IMG/VR virus record: IMGVR_UViG_3300043411_000856
Coordinates: 1-30,764 of that record
Length of the DNA: 30,764 bases
Reading direction: 5' to 3' (one strand)
Source: a virus
In this document: positions 2,381 to 12,111 of the stretch, one piece after another
Position numbering within the stretch: the first letter of the stretch is position 1
Layout: every line of letters begins with the position of its first letter
Translations under genes and position numbers: made by a program
Notes under the pieces: generated by a model
What the model saw: the letters and a program-made list of their open reading frames with translations, nothing else
What the model was told of the DNA's origin: nothing
Databases searched by the model: none

Positions 2381-4669
2381 CTACGCGTAGTAGCTGAAAT
2401 CCCGCTTGCGCGGCTCTTTGGGCTTGGGCTCGTCGAACGGGTCGGTGTCGAGCGAGAGACGGCCGGACTGCCGGAACCGGATCAGGGCTTGGACCGTACA
2501 ATCGACGAGGTCGTCATGCGCTCCGGTGGGGAACGCGGCGCACTGGTCGATGACGAGGTCCGCGAACGGCTTCTTCGGCGCCCAGACGCAGTCGCTCTCG
2601 AAGATCGACTGCACGCTGTAGGCCCGGGATTGCTTGTCCCGATCCGGGGTGTACGCGACCACCGGGATGCCCTGCCGGCGCAACTCCTGGATCAGCGATT
2701 GCCCGCTGGCCTTCTTCTCGATCAGCACGGTATCCGGATCGTGCTTCTTGATCAGCGCCTTGCACTTCGCCCGGAGGTCGGGGAAGTCGACGCGGTCCTG
2801 CCACGCGTCCAGCAGGATGATGTTGTCGTAGACCTTCGGCCCCTTCGTCTCGTCCTCGGTGTCCTTGGAGCGGAAGTAGCCCCAGACCGTCGCCGCGCTG
2901 TAGTCCGCGCTTTCCTTCTCGGAGAACGCAGTGTCGAGGCTGAGGACCACATGCTCGACCGGCGGCGGCTCGTCGCGCTCCCAGCGCTGCCACCACTGGC
3001 GCTTGAGGATGCCGCCTTCGTCTGCGACAGGGCGCTGCATGTAGAGCGCCGACCAGTCGCGCGACGGGAGCGTCCGCTTGATGCGGGCCAGCGCCTCGCT
3101 GTCGAATTTCTCGGGCCACAACGGCTCGCCGTTCGGCAGCACCGCCGGGAAATCGACCGTCTCCCACTCCTCGTGGGCGTGTTCCTTCAACAGCCACCCG
3201 GCGAGGTCATCTTCCCTCCACCTCGTATTATGGGACACCAGCCCGCCCGCGACGAAGTTGTGGGCGCCATCGACCGTTAGATCGTAAACCCTTTCGACGG
3301 CGCCCAGATCGACGCTGACAACTTCGTCAGTATCGATCCCGGACGTATTCGATGGCTCGTTCCAAAATGCTGGTATCGCGAGTTCGTCCTGCAATTCTGT
3401 TGCAGTCGTTGCAGAGCAAGCCTCGCACCCGTCCTGTGTCGTGATTGTGATCCGGGACAAGGTTGGTAACCCAATGCCGGGGTCGGCCGACGCTTCCGTC
3501 TGTTCGGCAGATTGCGCACAGCCCGCCCTGATCGGCGAGCAGCCCATCAAAGTCGGCTTGACTGATCCCGTATCGCCATTCCCGCCGCTTTGCCAGCCGC
3601 CGGTCAGACAAGAGGGATGGCGGCTTTGCGCCGGCGGCCCATTTTGCTTTGTTGTAGTGAGATGCGCACATGCCGCGGCATTTGGCGCGCTTGTCGCACC
3701 CGTCAACCGAACACGAGGTGCCTGCGTAAGCGCCCCTCGGAGCGCGACTATACGCATTCCAGCCCGCAAGTCTTTCGTTCTCACCCATTCAAGACCACCT
3801 TGACCAAGGACCAAGAAGGGATGCCGCGCGTTTGCACGCACAACACTGTTCTTTGTCTTAATCAAATAGGTTTGATCGGGACCATTATCAATGATGGCCG
3901 CTACGTTCGCGCCAACAAACCTTGTGCCATTCCACGAAAGCACTCGATCGCCGGGCTGAATCCTGTCCAGCCGCTTGTTGCCCCCATTCTCCATTGCAAT
4001 CGCGGTGTCGCCGGCGAGGCACTGGATCAACACCACCCGACCGCCGGGCATCAGCCGGGTGTAGGCGACGGCCGGATACCAGTCCTGAAGGTGGCGGCGA
4101 ACCGCCTCGCTGTCCGCGCTCTCCCGGTCCTTGATCGGGTCGTCGATGAGGAACAGGTCCGCACCGCGTCCCGTCGTCGGGCCGCCGACGCCTACCGCGT
4201 AGTAGAGGCCGCCGGACAGCGTGCCGAAGCGCCGGACCGATGCGCTGTCCTGCGACAGCTTGCACCCCGGGAACACGGCCGCGAACTCCTCGTCGCCGAC
4301 GATGTTCCGAACCGCGCGACCGATGTCGTCCGCGAAGTCCTGGTTGTAGGTCGCCGCGATGACCTGGCGATCCGCCTGCCGGCCGAGGAACCATGCCGGG
4401 AACAGGTGCGAGGCCGTCCACGTCTTGCCGTGCCGTGGCGGCATGGTGATGATGAGGCGAGTGATATCCCCGCGCTCTACCGCCTCCAGTTTCTCGGCCA
4501 GGATGCGAAGGTGTGGGGCTTCCTCGTAGCGCGGGTAGATCAGCCGACAGAAGTCAGTGAAGCGATCCGCCGCCCGTATCGTCCGCAGCTCTTTCAGCAG
4601 CTCGCCCGCTCGCGACAAGACCGAGGGCGGCAAGTTCGCCAAGGATGTCGGACTCGCTGCGACGCTCAT
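2381..4669 (-). CDS. terL: Terminase large subunit precursor containing an intein
   Basis: This is the ATPase/nuclease that pumps DNA into the capsid and cuts it. The precursor is 762 aa: N-extein 1-216, intein 217-481, C-extein 482-762. Walker A is MPPRHGKT (76-83) and Walker B is LFLIDDP (172-178). The coupling motif VVLIQ-TRW is split by the intein between Gln216 and Thr482. The RNase H-type nuclease has Asp579 (LSLDT), Glu651 (VLIEKK) and Asp719/720/723 (AHDDLVD). Removing the intein leaves a protein of about 497 aa, the usual TerL length, with all catalytic residues. Splicing is therefore needed for function, since the intein interrupts the ATPase. The ATG at 4669 overlaps the upstream TerS-like gene by 116 nt, which is long but common for terS-terL pairs; no good later start was seen. 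Confidence 0.96.
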   Translation of the reverse strand: MSVAASPTSLANLPPSVLSRAGELLKELRTIRAADRFTDFCRLIYPRYEEAPHLRILAEKLEAVERGDITRLIITMPPRHGKTWTASHLFPAWFLGRQADRQVIAATYNQDFADDIGRAVRNIVGDEEFAAVFPGCKLSQDSASVRRFGTLSGGLYYAVGVGGPTTGRGADLFLIDDPIKDRESADSEAVRRHLQDWYPAVAYTRLMPGGRVVLIQCLAGDTAIAMENGGNKRLDRIQPGDRVLSWNGTRFVGANVAAIIDNGPDQTYLIKTKNSVVRANARHPFLVLGQGGLEWVRTKDLRAGMRIVALRGALTQAPRVRLTGATSAPNAAACAHLTTTKQNGPPAQSRHPSCLTGGWQSGGNGDTGSVKPTLMGCSPIRAGCAQSAEQTEASADPGIGLPTLSRITITTQDGCEACSATTATELQDELAIPAFWNEPSNTSGIDTDEVVSVDLGAVERVYDLTVDGAHNFVAGGLVSHNTRWREDDLAGWLLKEHAHEEWETVDFPAVLPNGEPLWPEKFDSEALARIKRTLPSRDWSALYMQRPVADEGGILKRQWWQRWERDEPPPVEHVVLSLDTAFSEKESADYSAATVWGYFRSKDTEDETKGPKVYDNIILLDAWQDRVDFPDLRAKCKALIKKHDPDTVLIEKKASGQSLIQELRRQGIPVVAYTPDRDKQSRAYSVQSIFESDCVWAPKKPFADLVIDQCAAFPTGAHDDLVDCTVQALIRFRQSGRLSLDTDPFDEPKPKEPRKRDFSYYA
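3327..3788 (-). CDS. Endonuclease VII-type HNH homing endonuclease, out of frame inside the intein
   Basis: This complete 153-aa protein is encoded 2 nt out of phase with the surrounding terL/intein frame. It carries an N-terminal Cys cluster (CSVDGCDKRAKCRGMC, about 26-41) and the recombination-endonuclease-VII signature: CAIC (about 93-96), VPDHNHDTG (about 112-120), RGLLCNDCN (123-131) and a C-terminal ILERAIEYV helix. The zinc Cys pairs and the DH-H core are all present. The ATG at 3788 lies at the end of intein block B, preceded by AAGGTGGT about 6 nt upstream as a ribosome-binding site. The stop at 3329-3327 falls just where the C-terminal splicing domain resumes. It probably cuts intein-less terL alleles so that the intein spreads. 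Independent translation is inferred; a minus-one frameshift from terL could also reach this frame but would give a product unable to splice. Confidence 0.88.
   Translation of the reverse strand: MGENERLAGWNAYSRAPRGAYAGTSCSVDGCDKRAKCRGMCASHYNKAKWAAGAKPPSLLSDRRLAKRREWRYGISQADFDGLLADQGGLCAICRTDGSVGRPRHWVTNLVPDHNHDTGRVRGLLCNDCNRIAGRTRDTSILERAIEYVRDRY
3792..3801 (-). promoter_or_regulatory. Internal ribosome-binding site for the nested HNH gene
   Basis: On the minus strand the sequence AAGGTGGT lies about 6 nt before the ATG at 3788, inside intein block B coding sequence. It matches the anti-Shine-Dalgarno sequence well and supports separate translation of the out-of-frame HNH gene. Confidence 0.55.
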
Positions 4670-5256: not shown

Positions 5257-5993
5257 CACCTCACCACGAAACTCGGTTCCGGCCGCCTGATCCCAAGCCA
5301 TTGCTCGGCCACGGCGCCCATGAATTGCTTCCGGGCTCCCTTGTGGTGGAGCATGTAGGCATGGGGGATGGCGGGGTCGTCGGGACAGGCCGGGGGCAGG
5401 TTGTGGGTGTCCATGTCGAGGTACTTGACGCGGACGCCGTGGCGATCGGCGATGCTGCCGGGCTTCAGAAGGGGGTAGCAGATGCGCCGGATGGATTCCT
5501 GATCGCCTGGCCATTCATCGGGACAGTTCGCATAGGCGAGGTCGTAGAAGCGCGTCGCTTCCGCATTCTTGCCCGCAGGCAGGAACACCGCCCCGTTGTT
5601 GAGCCCTTGGGGGCTGTACGGCCCGACCGTGACCGCGACATCCCAATCACCACCATCGAACACGGGCGACGGGTCCTTGAGGAACAGGCAGTCGACGCCG
5701 ACGAAGATGGTTCCACCCTCCCCCGTGCCCATGGCCTGGAGGTAGGCGAGTTGGCCGGCGACGATGGCCCGCATCAGTTTCAGGTCCTGCGTGCCGTCGA
5801 GTGCCACAACGCGGCTGGGCGGGACGTGCGGGATGCTGTCCTCGTTGCCCTTCTCGGTGAGCAAGACGTGGCGGAGGCCGAGGCGGGTGCAGGAGGCTTC
5901 GAGGATGCCGATGGGCTCGTCGTATGCGTGGGCGCGGTCGCCGTACTCGGCGGGGCGGGGGCTGTAGTAGGAAACGATGGTGGGGAGGGTCAC
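5256..5993 (-). CDS. Glycosyltransferase-like protein (GT-A type, nucleotide-diphospho-sugar transferase fold)
   Basis: This 245-aa protein starts at a GTG (5993) that overlaps the previous stop as GTGA. The N-terminus LPTIVSYYS is followed by a Rossmann-like pattern. GGTIFVGVDCLFLKDPSP (about 105-122) resembles the metal-binding acidic motif of GT-A enzymes, and DQESIRRICYP (about 175-185) resembles the conserved acidic segment that follows the sugar-binding pocket in such families. NNGAVFLPAG also fits. It would transfer a sugar from a nucleotide donor to a glycan or protein. It is the last gene of the sugar-modification cassette at 5256-8365. The acceptor is unknown: host surface polysaccharide or a virion protein are both possible. 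Confidence 0.65.
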   Translation of the reverse strand: MTLPTIVSYYSPRPAEYGDRAHAYDEPIGILEASCTRLGLRHVLLTEKGNEDSIPHVPPSRVVALDGTQDLKLMRAIVAGQLAYLQAMGTGEGGTIFVGVDCLFLKDPSPVFDGGDWDVAVTVGPYSPQGLNNGAVFLPAGKNAEATRFYDLAYANCPDEWPGDQESIRRICYPLLKPGSIADRHGVRVKYLDMDTHNLPPACPDDPAIPHAYMLHHKGARKQFMGAVAEQWLGIRRPEPSFVVR

Positions 5994-6760
5994 ACCGGAT
6001 GCCCGGACACCGCGAAGTCGCCCGAGACATCGTCGGGCGTGAACCGCGCGATGGGGGCGAAGCCGTCGTTGGCCGCGGGCTTGGGCCGGGCCGGAAGGCC
6101 GAGGACCGTGTCCCCGGGCCGAACGTCCTTCGTCACCACGGCGCCCGCGCAGATCGTGGCTTCGTCGCCGATGTGGACGCCGGCCAGGATGATCGCGCCG
6201 CAGCCGATGAACACCCGCTTGCCGATCACCGGCGGATTGAACCGCTTCTCCGACCACGCCCCGGCCACGATGGCCTCGGGGTCGCCGTCGTTCGCCATGC
6301 TGACGTGGGGGCCGATGAACGAGCCCTCGCCCACGACCGTGCCGCCGATCAGGGTCGCGTGGTCCATGACGCGGACCCCGTCCGAAACCAGAACATCATG
6401 CGAAATGTTGGCGTAGTGGCCGATGGTGCAGCCGGCGCCGATGACCGCGTTCTCGCGCACCGTGGCATGGGCGCCGATCAGGGAGTTCTTCCCGATCCTG
6501 GCCCCGGCATAGATCACGGCGTGGGCGTCGATGACGCTGTTCTCGCCCACGATGGTCTGGTCGTTCCGGGCCTGCGGAGCATCCGGGGTGCGAGACAGGA
6601 CGTGCCGGCCGGCGGTGGGCTTCCCCACTACGGCGAGCGGCATCACGACCGAACCCCGCGCCAGGATCACCTGGCCGAGCAGGACGGCGAGCGGGTGGAT
6701 GGTGCAGAACGACCGGATCAGGTCGGGGTTTTCGATGATGGCGCGATGGTCAATCGACAT
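5990..6760 (-). CDS. Left-handed beta-helix (hexapeptide repeat) acyltransferase
   Basis: This 256-aa protein is dominated by imperfect hexapeptide repeats of the [LIV]-G-x4 type from about residue 70 to 220, for example VIDAHAVIYAGARIGKNSLI and CAGAVVTKDV, ending in GDTVLGLPARPKP. Such proteins form trimeric beta-helices and transfer acetyl or other acyl groups to sugars or sugar nucleotides. The loop after IGPHVSMAND interrupts the coil, as in sugar O- or N-acyltransferases. The start at 6760 overlaps the upstream gene by 11 nt. It lies between a heptosyltransferase-like gene and a glycosyltransferase, so a role in building or acylating a surface glycan is likely. The substrate cannot be read from the sequence. 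Confidence 0.85.
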   Translation of the reverse strand: MSIDHRAIIENPDLIRSFCTIHPLAVLLGQVILARGSVVMPLAVVGKPTAGRHVLSRTPDAPQARNDQTIVGENSVIDAHAVIYAGARIGKNSLIGAHATVRENAVIGAGCTIGHYANISHDVLVSDGVRVMDHATLIGGTVVGEGSFIGPHVSMANDGDPEAIVAGAWSEKRFNPPVIGKRVFIGCGAIILAGVHIGDEATICAGAVVTKDVRPGDTVLGLPARPKPAANDGFAPIARFTPDDVSGDFAVSGHPV

Positions 6761-7067
6761 CGCCAGTCTCTGTGAATGTGCACCGCAATTCGACTTCCGG
6801 CATCGTGGCCGCTGAAATGCCAAGGAACTGACCATCAGCCCCCGGAAACATGAGAAAATCCCACGCCTCTGATCTTCGGCGCGCGGGGAATGTGGCCCCG
6901 GCGTCGTGCAGATCGTTGAGCGCGCTCTCGACCCGGCGCCATTGCGCCATGAGCCCTTCGTAGGCATTCTCGGCAGCCAGGTTGTACGCCTCGACTTCGG
7001 CCCAGAGCCGCTTCGCGCCGTCCTCGACGGCCTGCCACTTCGTAGCCGCCTGCTCCATGGTCATCAT
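6750..7067 (-). CDS. Unknown 105-aa protein in the sugar-modification cassette
   Basis: The ATG at 7067 overlaps the upstream stop as ATGA. The first 60 residues are predicted helical (MMTMEQAATKWQAVEDGAKR onward, with many Ala, Glu and Arg). The remainder has alternating hydrophobics (FLGISAATMPEVELRCTF) suggestive of beta strands. No family recognised. It is fixed between the TPR/heptosyltransferase-like gene and the acyltransferase and is probably part of the same unit. Confidence 0.65.
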   Translation of the reverse strand: MMTMEQAATKWQAVEDGAKRLWAEVEAYNLAAENAYEGLMAQWRRVESALNDLHDAGATFPARRRSEAWDFLMFPGADGQFLGISAATMPEVELRCTFTETGDVD

Positions 7068-9490: not shown

Positions 9491-10443
9491 GCTGCCCCCC
9501 TTTGCTCGAAATCGCTGCGCTTGGGTTCCGGACCGACCTTCCCGCCGTCGCGCCATGCCTTCCACGCCTCGGTGTAGGCGGACCCGGACTGGAACGCGCC
9601 GATGACGACGGCCCCGGTTTCTCGGGCTGCCGCCGCCGGCGGTCCGGAGCCTGCCCGCCTCGCGTCGAGGGCCTCCATCACGGCGCCGCGGAAATACTCC
9701 GGGCTGCCCGGCGGCGATCCGGGCTTGCGTTTCGCCATGACCGCCGCGACGGCCGGCACGATGTCCAGCTCGGGGTCGGCGCCCCTCGCCATCCATCCGG
9801 CGACGATGCCGGCAGCGGTCATCCAGCGGGATTGCTTGTGGCGATCCGCACCGGCCATGGCCTCGATGCGGCGGCACAACGCGTCGAGCGGGTCGGCGTC
9901 GGCAGGCGGCTGCGGCACACCTCCTGCTCCTGCTCCCATTCCTCTCCCATTCCTCTCCCATTCCTGCTCCCTCTGCGGAGGCTTTCCCGCATTTGTCGGG
10001 AATGGGTCGCCTTCATCGTCGTCGTTTCCCGCATTTGTCGGGAATGGCGGCGCTCCATTGCCGTCCTGTTCCGCCTCATTCGCGGCCGAGCCGGGGCATG
10101 GCAGCCCGACATAGGACGCGAGACGCGGCGGCAGGACGTGCACGGGGTTGGGGCGCCGGGGGTTCTGGAAGCGGCGAAAGTTTCGGATGGCACCGTAGCT
10201 TTTGCCGGCCTCGTCGAAGCGCTTGACCATGTCGTTGGCCGCCAGCTCGGCGAGCAGGGCCGGGACATCGACGCCATCGACTGGGAACAGGCGCATCTTG
10301 ATCTGCACCGGCTTCCACTCGAACACGCCGTTGTCGTCGGCCTCGTTGCGGATGGCCAGCGCCAGCAGTCGGGCGGCCATGGAACACGACACGAACGCCT
10401 CGTCGGTCCACTGGCCTGGGTGGATGGATCTGATCCGCGACAT
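9487..10443 (-). CDS. Phage replisome organiser / replication initiator-like protein
   Basis: A 318-aa protein starting at the ATG at 10443, coupled to the helicase stop as TGATG. The first 110 residues (MSRIRSIHPGQWTDEAFVSC, then NEADDNGVFEWKPVQIKMRL) match the winged-helix N-terminal domain common to phage replisome organisers that bind the origin. A low-complexity linker (about 125-190) contains two PFPTNAG repeats and the iteron-like DNA described separately. The C-terminal part (about 190-318) resembles helicase-loader tails. It would recruit the adjacent DnaB-type helicase to the phage origin. The lambda O gene likewise carries its origin in the middle of its coding sequence. Confidence 0.78.
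   Translation of the reverse strand: MSRIRSIHPGQWTDEAFVSCSMAARLLALAIRNEADDNGVFEWKPVQIKMRLFPVDGVDVPALLAELAANDMVKRFDEAGKSYGAIRNFRRFQNPRRPNPVHVLPPRLASYVGLPCPGSAANEAEQDGNGAPPFPTNAGNDDDEGDPFPTNAGKPPQREQEWERNGRGMGAGAGGVPQPPADADPLDALCRRIEAMAGADRHKQSRWMTAAGIVAGWMARGADPELDIVPAVAAVMAKRKPGSPPGSPEYFRGAVMEALDARRAGSGPPAAAARETGAVVIGAFQSGSAYTEAWKAWRDGGKVGPEPKRSDFEQRGAA
9935..10047. repeat. Iteron-like cluster inside the replisome organiser gene (candidate origin)
   Basis: Three tandem 11-bp units, CCCATTCCTCT with a changed end in the third, lie at 9935-9967. A perfect 23-bp direct repeat occurs at 9983-10005 and 10025-10047; each copy holds the palindrome TTCCCG-N7-CGGGAA. The core GGAATGG occurs five times in 113 bp, three on the minus and two on the plus strand. 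It encodes the protein's low-complexity linker, so coding constraint is weak. Confidence 0.5.
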
Positions 10444-11876
10444 CACTGCCTCGCGAGGTTGCCGAAGGCCGTGCGCGGGCCATCGAACAGCAGCGGGACG
10501 GTCCGGCGGGCGCCGTGCCGGTTCTTCTCGATCGCGAGGTCGGCGATGCCTTCGCACGCCGCCATCTCGACCTTCCATTTCTCGAAGCGGTCGTTGAACT
10601 TCGCGTCGTCCTCGCCGTCCTTCCTGCGGGGCTCCCGCATCCCGAGGTAGTATTCGTGGCGGTACAGCATCCACACGCTGTCCGCGTCCTGCTCGATCGA
10701 GCCGGATTCGCGGAGATCGGATAGCTGGGGCCGCTTGTCGTCCCGGCTCTCGACGGAGCGCGACAACTGCGACAGGGCGATGACCGGGATGTTCAGTTCC
10801 TTGGCCATGACCTTCAGGTCGCGGGTGATCTTCGACAATTCCTGAACCCGGTTCTCGGTCTTGGCCGAGGCCACCAGAAGCTGGATGTAGTCGACGACTA
10901 CGAGGCCGACGCGGGCCTTGCGGGCCATTGAGCGGACCCGCATCCGAAGTTGGGTGACGGAGGCCGCGGGCGTGTCGTCGATGTGCAGCGGCATCCGGCC
11001 CATGTCCGATTGGGCGAACACCAGTTCCCGCATCTCGTCGTCGCTGACGTGCCCGGCGCGCTGCCGCTCGGTCGAGATGCCGGTCATGTCGGCCAGGATG
11101 CGCTGGGCGAGTTGCGAATAGGACATCTCCAGCGAGAAGAAGATGACCGGGACGCCGTCGCGGGCCGCGGCGAGCGCGATGCTGTTGGCCAGTGCCGTCT
11201 TGCCCATTCCGGGCCTGCCGGCGAGGACGATGAGGTCCGGCGCGTGCAGGCCGGAGGTCGCGCGGTCGAGGTCGATCAGGCCCGTGGATATCCCGGTGAC
11301 CTTGCCGCCCGCCTTCTTCGCGGCCTCGACTTGGCGCACCGCGACCAGCGCCGCATCCGAGATGTGGACCGCCTTGCTGCCGACCGCCCCGCTGTCGGCG
11401 ACGGCCGCCACGGCCGAAACCGCCTCGGCCAATGTCTCCTCGATCGTGCGGTTGGTGTCCGTGGCCATGGCCAGCTGGGTGATGGCCTCGCCGACCGCCA
11501 GCATCTCCCGCCGGATGTATGCCTCGCGGATCGCGACTGCGTAGTGGTTGGCGTTGGCGATGGTCGCGGATGCCGCGGTGAGGCGCGCCAGGTACAGCCC
11601 GCCGCCGCCGTGATCGACGAGCGCCGGATCGTCCTTGAACGCCTCCCGCAGCGTCAGGGCATCAGCGAGACCGCCGCGCATGATCGCGGCACGGGCCGCC
11701 GAGAATATCCGTCCGTGCACGGGGATCGCGAAATGGTGCGGCTCCAGCCCGGCGACGTGTTCGCGGTCGAGAACCGCGTTGTTCACCAGCAGCGCACCGA
11801 GAAACGCCTGCTCGGCCTCGTCCGCCCGCGGCGGCTCCGGTGCGTCGAAAGGATTGCGCCCGCCGCCATCAGCCAT
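10443..11876 (-). CDS. dnaB: Replicative DNA helicase, DnaB type
   Basis: A 477-aa protein with the standard DnaB plan. An N-terminal helical domain (about 18-120, starting ADEAEQAFLGALLVN) is joined by a linker to a RecA-type ATPase. Walker A is GRPGMGKT (220-227) and Walker B is VVVDYIQLL (326-334). SLEMSYSQLAQRIL, ALSQLSRSVE and RESGSIEQDAD are the other helicase core motifs. It unwinds DNA ahead of the phage fork as a hexamer. The ATG at 11876 overlaps the upstream stop by 8 nt, and its stop is coupled (TGATG) to the replisome organiser. The phage thus carries its own helicase together with a specific initiator/loader. Confidence 0.96.
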   Translation of the reverse strand: MADGGGRNPFDAPEPPRADEAEQAFLGALLVNNAVLDREHVAGLEPHHFAIPVHGRIFSAARAAIMRGGLADALTLREAFKDDPALVDHGGGGLYLARLTAASATIANANHYAVAIREAYIRREMLAVGEAITQLAMATDTNRTIEETLAEAVSAVAAVADSGAVGSKAVHISDAALVAVRQVEAAKKAGGKVTGISTGLIDLDRATSGLHAPDLIVLAGRPGMGKTALANSIALAAARDGVPVIFFSLEMSYSQLAQRILADMTGISTERQRAGHVSDDEMRELVFAQSDMGRMPLHIDDTPAASVTQLRMRVRSMARKARVGLVVVDYIQLLVASAKTENRVQELSKITRDLKVMAKELNIPVIALSQLSRSVESRDDKRPQLSDLRESGSIEQDADSVWMLYRHEYYLGMREPRRKDGEDDAKFNDRFEKWKVEMAACEGIADLAIEKNRHGARRTVPLLFDGPRTAFGNLARQ

Positions 11877-12111
11877 GATCGCCCCCAGGAGCAAAGAACG
11901 CGATGAAGCGGCCATAGGAACGGGCCAGTGCATCGGCGGTTTCGCGGTCGCGGCCCTTCTGGAACGCGATGGCGGCTGCCGCGTATTCAGAGAACGCGCG
12001 GCTCGCCAAGGTGTCGAGTGCTTCGCGCGACAGTCCTCCCGCGACGAGCGGGACGAGTTCGTCGGGAGCGTCCATACGCTCCCTTGTCATCGGTTCGTGC
12101 ATGGTCGGCAT
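11869..12111 (-). CDS. Small unknown protein upstream of the helicase (80 aa)
   Basis: I chose the ATG at 12111, 1 nt after the upstream TAA; an in-frame ATG at 12150 lies inside the preceding gene. The protein is Ala-rich and helical (REALDTLASRAFSEYAAAAI, then QKGRDRETADALARSYGRFI). No family recognised. The position, coupled to dnaB, suggests a role in or near replication. Confidence 0.6.
   Translation of the reverse strand: MPTMHEPMTRERMDAPDELVPLVAGGLSREALDTLASRAFSEYAAAAIAFQKGRDRETADALARSYGRFIAFFAPGGDHG

Follow-up and report, generated by a model that had tools for sequence, protein, structure and literature searches.

Related systems

The homing endonuclease of a textbook intein is one of the domains of the protein that is spliced out, and the functions for splicing and for mobility are therefore produced jointly and in the same quantity. 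The closest described relatives of the intein analysed here are the TerL6-f inteins in the large terminase (TerL) of Mycobacterium B3/B4 phages. Kelley et al. 2016 (PMC5050341) describe splicing of Chandler gp6 in a reporter and cleavage tests for TerL1-b and TerL1-c (LAGLIDADG) only; the text of that paper searched for HNH and for frame reports no nuclease for TerL6-f. The window, by which we mean the whole stretch of 30,764 b that was analysed (IMG/VR virus record IMGVR_UViG_3300043411_000856), carries an intein in the same host protein family and, by homology, at the same insertion site. The TerL6-f inteins of Chandler, Phlyer and Vincenzo also have a nested HNH gene, in the same frame as in the window, which is a distant member of this group. 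It differs from the Mycobacterium inteins in its TerL lineage and in its ATG start.

The second system for comparison is the ShiLan domain, a hidden out-of-frame HNH in phage DNA methylases (Arsenault, Gosselin, Gogarten 2025, PMC11855218). As in the window, the HNH occupies another frame of the insertion, the frame of the host gene stays open and the distribution is patchy and homing-like. However, ShiLan lacks a splicing domain, starts with GTG and shows no detectable ribosome-binding site, whereas the window family has a full Hint domain and mostly ATG starts. The window is therefore not a ShiLan-type insertion, i.e. an out-of-frame HNH without a splicing domain. On overlapping reading frames in actinobacteriophages PMC11855218 cites a preprint about inteins of these phages with a 'non-canonical architecture'. 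Judging from this citation the preprint may well describe the architecture found in the window for actinophage inteins, and its title covers actinobacteriophages only.

Finally, three canonical inteins (L134, L152 and L167) have a homologous Hint domain at the same junction. Unlike the window, they carry a LAGLIDADG endonuclease fused in frame and their other frames are full of stops. The window intein does not have the canonical bifunctional layout, in which blocks B and F enclose an endonuclease domain in the same frame. The intein of L167 contains an in-frame stop.

The terL precursor and its intein

The terL gene (Terminase_6 type large terminase) lies on the minus strand at 2381-4669 and encodes a precursor of 762 aa in a single ORF that spans the intein. 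Its product matches Terminase_6N, Terminase_6C and Intein_splicing (2e-11, residues 226-481) in Pfam as well as an intein C-terminal region in NCBIfam (2e-7). The junctions set the exact intein to precursor residues C217-N481, followed by Thr at +1. This corresponds to a 795-bp insert of 265 aa at 3227-4021 (minus strand) at a TerL6-f type site. The sequence features of a Class 1 intein are present: Cys1, blocks A, B, F and G (CLAGDT, ANARHPF, VYDLTVDGAHNFVAGG and SHN|T), the C-terminal His-Asn and the +1 residue. The junctions agree with the position that the original prediction had given for the intein from the letters alone.

The N-terminal splicing region of Hint (blocks A and B and the following strands; 3743-4021, minus strand) has a high-confidence structure prediction as far as intein residue 93, and the fold of the C-terminal region (blocks F and G, VYDLTV ... 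LVSHN; 3227-3331, minus strand) is of high confidence as well. In the AlphaFold model the two Hint halves reach a pLDDT of about 95. The overprinted linker between them (3385-3734 on the minus strand in the terL frame, intein residues about 96-212) stays below 50 and is predicted to be disordered. The best PDB matches of the predicted Hint fold are mini-inteins. Given the Hint fold, which is predicted to be intact, and the splicing published for its relative in Chandler, the window intein is probably a cis-splicing intein of the TerL6-f type.

The nested HNH gene and its predicted product

An HNH / endonuclease VII gene of 153 aa is found at 3327-3788 on the minus strand, in another frame than terL. 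Its start lies 881 nt (2 mod 3) away from that of terL, and the HNH codon positions 1, 2 and 3 correspond to the terL positions 3, 1 and 2. The ORF belongs to Endonuclease_7 (PF02945) with a Pfam match of 1.5e-20. Cys91, Cys94, Cys126 and Cys129, Asp113-His114 and Asn130 are invariant. Compared with the PDB, the HNH profile finds Hpy99I and T4 endonuclease VII; D40, H41, N62, C58 and C61 of the T4 enzyme align with D113, H114, N130, C126 and C129 of the window HNH, five residues without variation among 34 relatives. The fold model has a mean pLDDT of 83; its Foldseek matches are again these beta-beta-alpha-Me nucleases, though they are weak (best E 3.6e-3). In contrast to both enzymes the window HNH has an extra N-terminal zinc-finger-like module (C26, C31, C41 and H44), and its N-terminus is encoded on codons of Hint. 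These first, Hint-written residues are poorly predicted, and many relatives align to the HNH only from about residue 19 onward. The family profile and the invariant zinc and catalytic residues place the predicted product among the endonuclease VII / HNH nucleases.

Recurrence among relatives

The same arrangement was sought in related TerL inteins with several searches, whose result sets (profile-classed, Hint-based and TerL extein-based) overlap. A search with the HNH returned 11 viral loci. In all of them terL extends across the HNH with an identical frame relation; the HNH proteins are 65-73% identical and the TerL exteins far less alike. An alignment-based search of viral and of genome contigs gave 80 and 23 loci, respectively. 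The loci were classed with profiles that we built for the N and C regions of Hint, for TerL and for HNH. The classing gave 95 complete nested loci (window included), all with the +1 relation in one open ORF, where a nested call rests partly on finding both Hint halves in one ORF and only one broken contig was set aside. The remainder comprised three same-frame loci cut by contig ends, one frameshifted locus and 19 HNH genes without Hint. There was no intact case among the classified loci of an HNH in frame with both Hint halves. A search with only the N-terminal region of Hint added 78 newly classified loci, 73 of which are nested; the other five are the three canonical inteins described above (LAGLIDADG in frame, same TerL site), one partial locus and one broken locus. 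After removal of identical copies we retained 127 distinct nested loci, which are related, so that raw counts overstate their independence. All of them share the relative frame of the window.

The arrangement is not unique to the window, contrary to the original prediction, which knew of no intein whose homing enzyme is a separate gene in an alternative frame. It also occurs in the Mycobacterium phages Phlyer, Chandler and Vincenzo, in the Gordonia phages Nordenberg, Angelicage and Keitabear, in phi1_186018 and in a Streptomyces anulatus plasmid. The host assemblies with such loci include Mycolicibacterium, Nonomuraea and Bradyrhizobium as well as MAGs of Gallionellaceae, Geobacteraceae, Chloroflexi and Eremiobacterota, where MAG contigs may be misbinned.

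The nested HNH proteins of the 127 distinct loci fall into two size classes of about 151-165 and 184-200 aa. In the longer class the segment from the Hint strand to the zinc-finger-like module is extended by about 40 residues. Some loci have a second insertion with intein-like ends in the N-terminal part of TerL, located in the Walker A region in L052, L086 and L104 and near Walker B in L103. These four terminases seem to contain two inteins each, and the second insertion of L103 looks like a mini-intein. Among free-standing relatives of the HNH we found none that is convincingly nested in another gene; the endonuclease VII gene of Teaspoon was rejected because its overlap with the neighbouring gene is limited to a few bases. 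The bnrdE intein of SPbeta was rejected as an earlier out-of-frame case, since its LAGLIDADG-type domain is an ordinary one in frame and an ORF of this kind is absent.

Probable mobility and empty sites

For the window a near-isogenic empty counterpart was available from another metagenome. In this contig (L197) terL has no intein and is joined exactly at the splice junction, reading LIQ|TRW. TerL is 96% identical to that of the window over the C-extein and the flanks are about 95% identical in DNA. A search with TerL exteins found 74 empty and five nested loci among the TerL relatives of the locus L007. We also compared the mismatches between the window and L197. Within 15 nt on each side of the junction 12 of 30 positions differ, compared to 5.1% elsewhere (p 2.5e-8; one near-isogenic pair). 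The excess covers the N-extein flank at 4022-4040 and the C-extein flank at 3212-3226 (both minus strand) and resembles a co-conversion footprint, while more diverged pairs showed no mismatch excess at the junction. It could be the result of co-conversion of the flanks during homing or of a target escape mutation in L197.

Pairwise identities across 22 loci gave Spearman correlations of 0.82 for HNH-Hint, 0.11 for HNH-TerL and 0.13 for Hint-TerL, where the pairs are not independent. HNH and Hint covary and neither follows TerL, which indicates that the two travel as one element between TerL lineages. Two marks of an intein-borne homing endonuclease are observed here: the element is present or absent at one site in near-identical hosts, and nuclease and intein are inherited jointly but separately from the host gene.

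The locus is very probably a TerL6-f intein that is mobile and has its homing endonuclease encoded by an overprinted gene with independent initiation. Ribosomes in the terL frame would produce the precursor, from which a mini-Hint with a roughly 115-residue disordered linker would excise itself. Other ribosomes would initiate within the intein at the ATG or GTG on the Hint Trp codon and make the 153-aa endonuclease-VII-type HNH nuclease. In terL copies that lack the intein this nuclease would cut the junction, and repair would copy the whole intein in. Translation of the HNH, cleavage of the empty allele and homing are inferred here from sequence comparisons. Of the proposed division of splicing and homing between two proteins made from the same DNA, the overprinting is supported by the comparisons; the HNH is the presumed homing enzyme.

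We also considered another role for the nested nuclease: rather than acting in homing, it would serve the phage as an accessory in packaging or in the resolution of DNA branches and be retained for that benefit. T4 endonuclease VII clears branched DNA before packaging, and the nuclease of the window is of the same family and located in terL. HNH proteins beside terminases are moreover known packaging parts, according to work cited in PMC12613952. However, such an accessory is missing from the near-isogenic L197 and from the 74 empty relatives, the HNH evolves with Hint and not with TerL, and in other phages the same TerL site carries in-frame LAGLIDADG homing endonucleases. We therefore regard an accessory role as improbable and prefer a homing endonuclease.

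The start of the nested gene

The original prediction had given the HNH its own ATG, ribosome-binding site and stop, and the letters named for all three are present on the minus strand of the window. The start ATG overlaps the conserved Trp codon of Hint (ATGG, 3785-3788) and the TGA stop (3327-3329) lies just ahead of the strand of Hint block F. A Shine-Dalgarno-like run, AAGGTGGT, is found at 3794-3801 and is composed of Hint codons. Across all loci the Shine-Dalgarno signal slightly exceeds what synonymous Hint codons give by chance (by -0.98 kcal/mol on average). At the window locus AAGGTGGT is no better than Hint codons by chance.

The position of the start is conserved in 127 of 127 distinct loci. 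It always joins the final base of a Hint codon, in most cases one for Glu or Lys, to the TGG of the conserved Trp, giving ATG in 101 loci and GTG in 26. Based on the codon usage of the same terL genes we would expect 42 ATG starts, so there is a 2.4-fold excess (z 11.9). From this start to the HNH core the frame is open in 124 of the 127 loci. In L035, L104 and L137 it is closed between the two; decay of the nuclease or a later start are possible reasons.

Programmed frameshifts are used by other phage genes, and the HNH might be produced in this way as a HintN-HNH fusion without a start of its own, which would agree with the weak Shine-Dalgarno evidence. Against this, a stop in the HNH frame occurs at most 93 nt upstream of the start in all 127 loci. 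In 13 of them, window included, it directly abuts the start (TGA at 3789-3791, minus strand, in the window). With such stops in every locus the nuclease is not an extension or a frameshift product of the upstream Hint. The conservation of the start and the strong preference for ATG also argue against frameshifting, which is very unlikely, and point to independent initiation within the intein.

Selection in two reading frames

To decide whether both frames are under selection we computed the number of stops expected in the terL frame by synonymous resampling of the HNH codons. For the window alone the terL frame would stay open across the HNH with P about 0.27-0.28. The openness described in the original prediction is correct; taken by itself it is unremarkable. 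The picture changes across relatives: 123 nested loci have no stop in the intein frame where 260.7 are expected, and in 28 cluster representatives (60% identity) the numbers are 0 and 60.1. The third frame served as a control and contained 1381 stops compared to 1380.5 expected. As a second control we used 19 free-standing HNH relatives, which have 72 stops in the same frame with 76 expected. We set the z-scores from synonymous shuffling aside as evidence and relied on these controls, because shared ancestry inflates all frames alike.

The distribution of differences over codon positions was examined as well. In the HNH core HNH position 3 differs in 51% of pairs, position 1 in 22% and position 2 in 18%. 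Since third positions vary most, the HNH protein is the conserved product here. For the first 17 HNH codons the order is reversed, with 24% at HNH position 3 and 32% at position 1, which is position 3 of the Hint codons. The synonymous divergence of the HNH is correspondingly U-shaped, with 0.14 at codons 1-17, 0.34-0.64 between and 0.22 at the end. It is low at the ends because they also encode Hint strands. A conserved intein-frame protein in the linker was rejected: over the HNH core the likeness is 0.41 in the intein frame and 0.42 in the third frame, so only openness is selected there. The synonymous-substitution analysis suggested earlier gave an answer for each part, namely a stop-free intein frame, an HNH core under purifying selection and two ends constrained in both frames. 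With selection in two frames and a conserved start of its own, the HNH ORF has the marks of an overlapping gene.

Decay of an endonuclease domain that was once in frame, or an indel from assembly or sequencing, has a negligible probability as the origin of the HNH ORF: one related contig (L032, the same contig as L165) has broken frames, but the identical frame recurs in more than 100 contigs and in isolated phages, the catalytic residues are invariant, the core shows purifying selection and both frames have zero stops. Both objections named in advance, an indel and homologues with an in-frame HNH, fail: the intact dual frames in so many contigs rule out an indel artefact, and no relative has this HNH in frame with both Hint halves.

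Significance of the arrangement

The TerL6-f class, the splicing of Chandler and the principle of an out-of-frame HNH (ShiLan) were already known. Whatever the cited preprint contains, the present analysis adds the spread beyond actinophages, dual coding backed by controls, the start on the Trp codon and the pair with an empty site. Tentatively, and with slightly more doubt than confidence, we suggest an old and widespread intein class, present in the TerL of phages and prophages whose hosts span several bacterial phyla. In this class splicing and homing would be split between two separately initiated overlapping genes, and the start and the first ~18 residues of the nuclease, written on conserved Hint codons, would lock the relative frame. 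As a class it would be undescribed beyond, perhaps even within, actinobacteriophages.

With two proteins encoded by one stretch of DNA each can be expressed, lost or changed alone, although at the DNA level the overlap keeps them linked. The start conserved at the Trp codon of Hint points to a route by which a nuclease gene inserted out of frame in an intein comes to be translated and is then held in that frame. Inteins annotated without an endonuclease deserve a check of their other frames; the Chandler intein, with its splicing tested in 2016 and no nuclease in the text searched, is of this kind. The whole cycle can be tested with phages that already grow on Mycobacterium smegmatis.

Two other genes on the minus strand of the window were noted. 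The ORF at 5990-6967 reads like a left-handed beta-helix (hexapeptide-repeat) acyltransferase, and its PHROGs matches are families of unknown function only. At 10443-11933 there is a gene for a DnaB-like replicative helicase (phrog_19, 1e-100).
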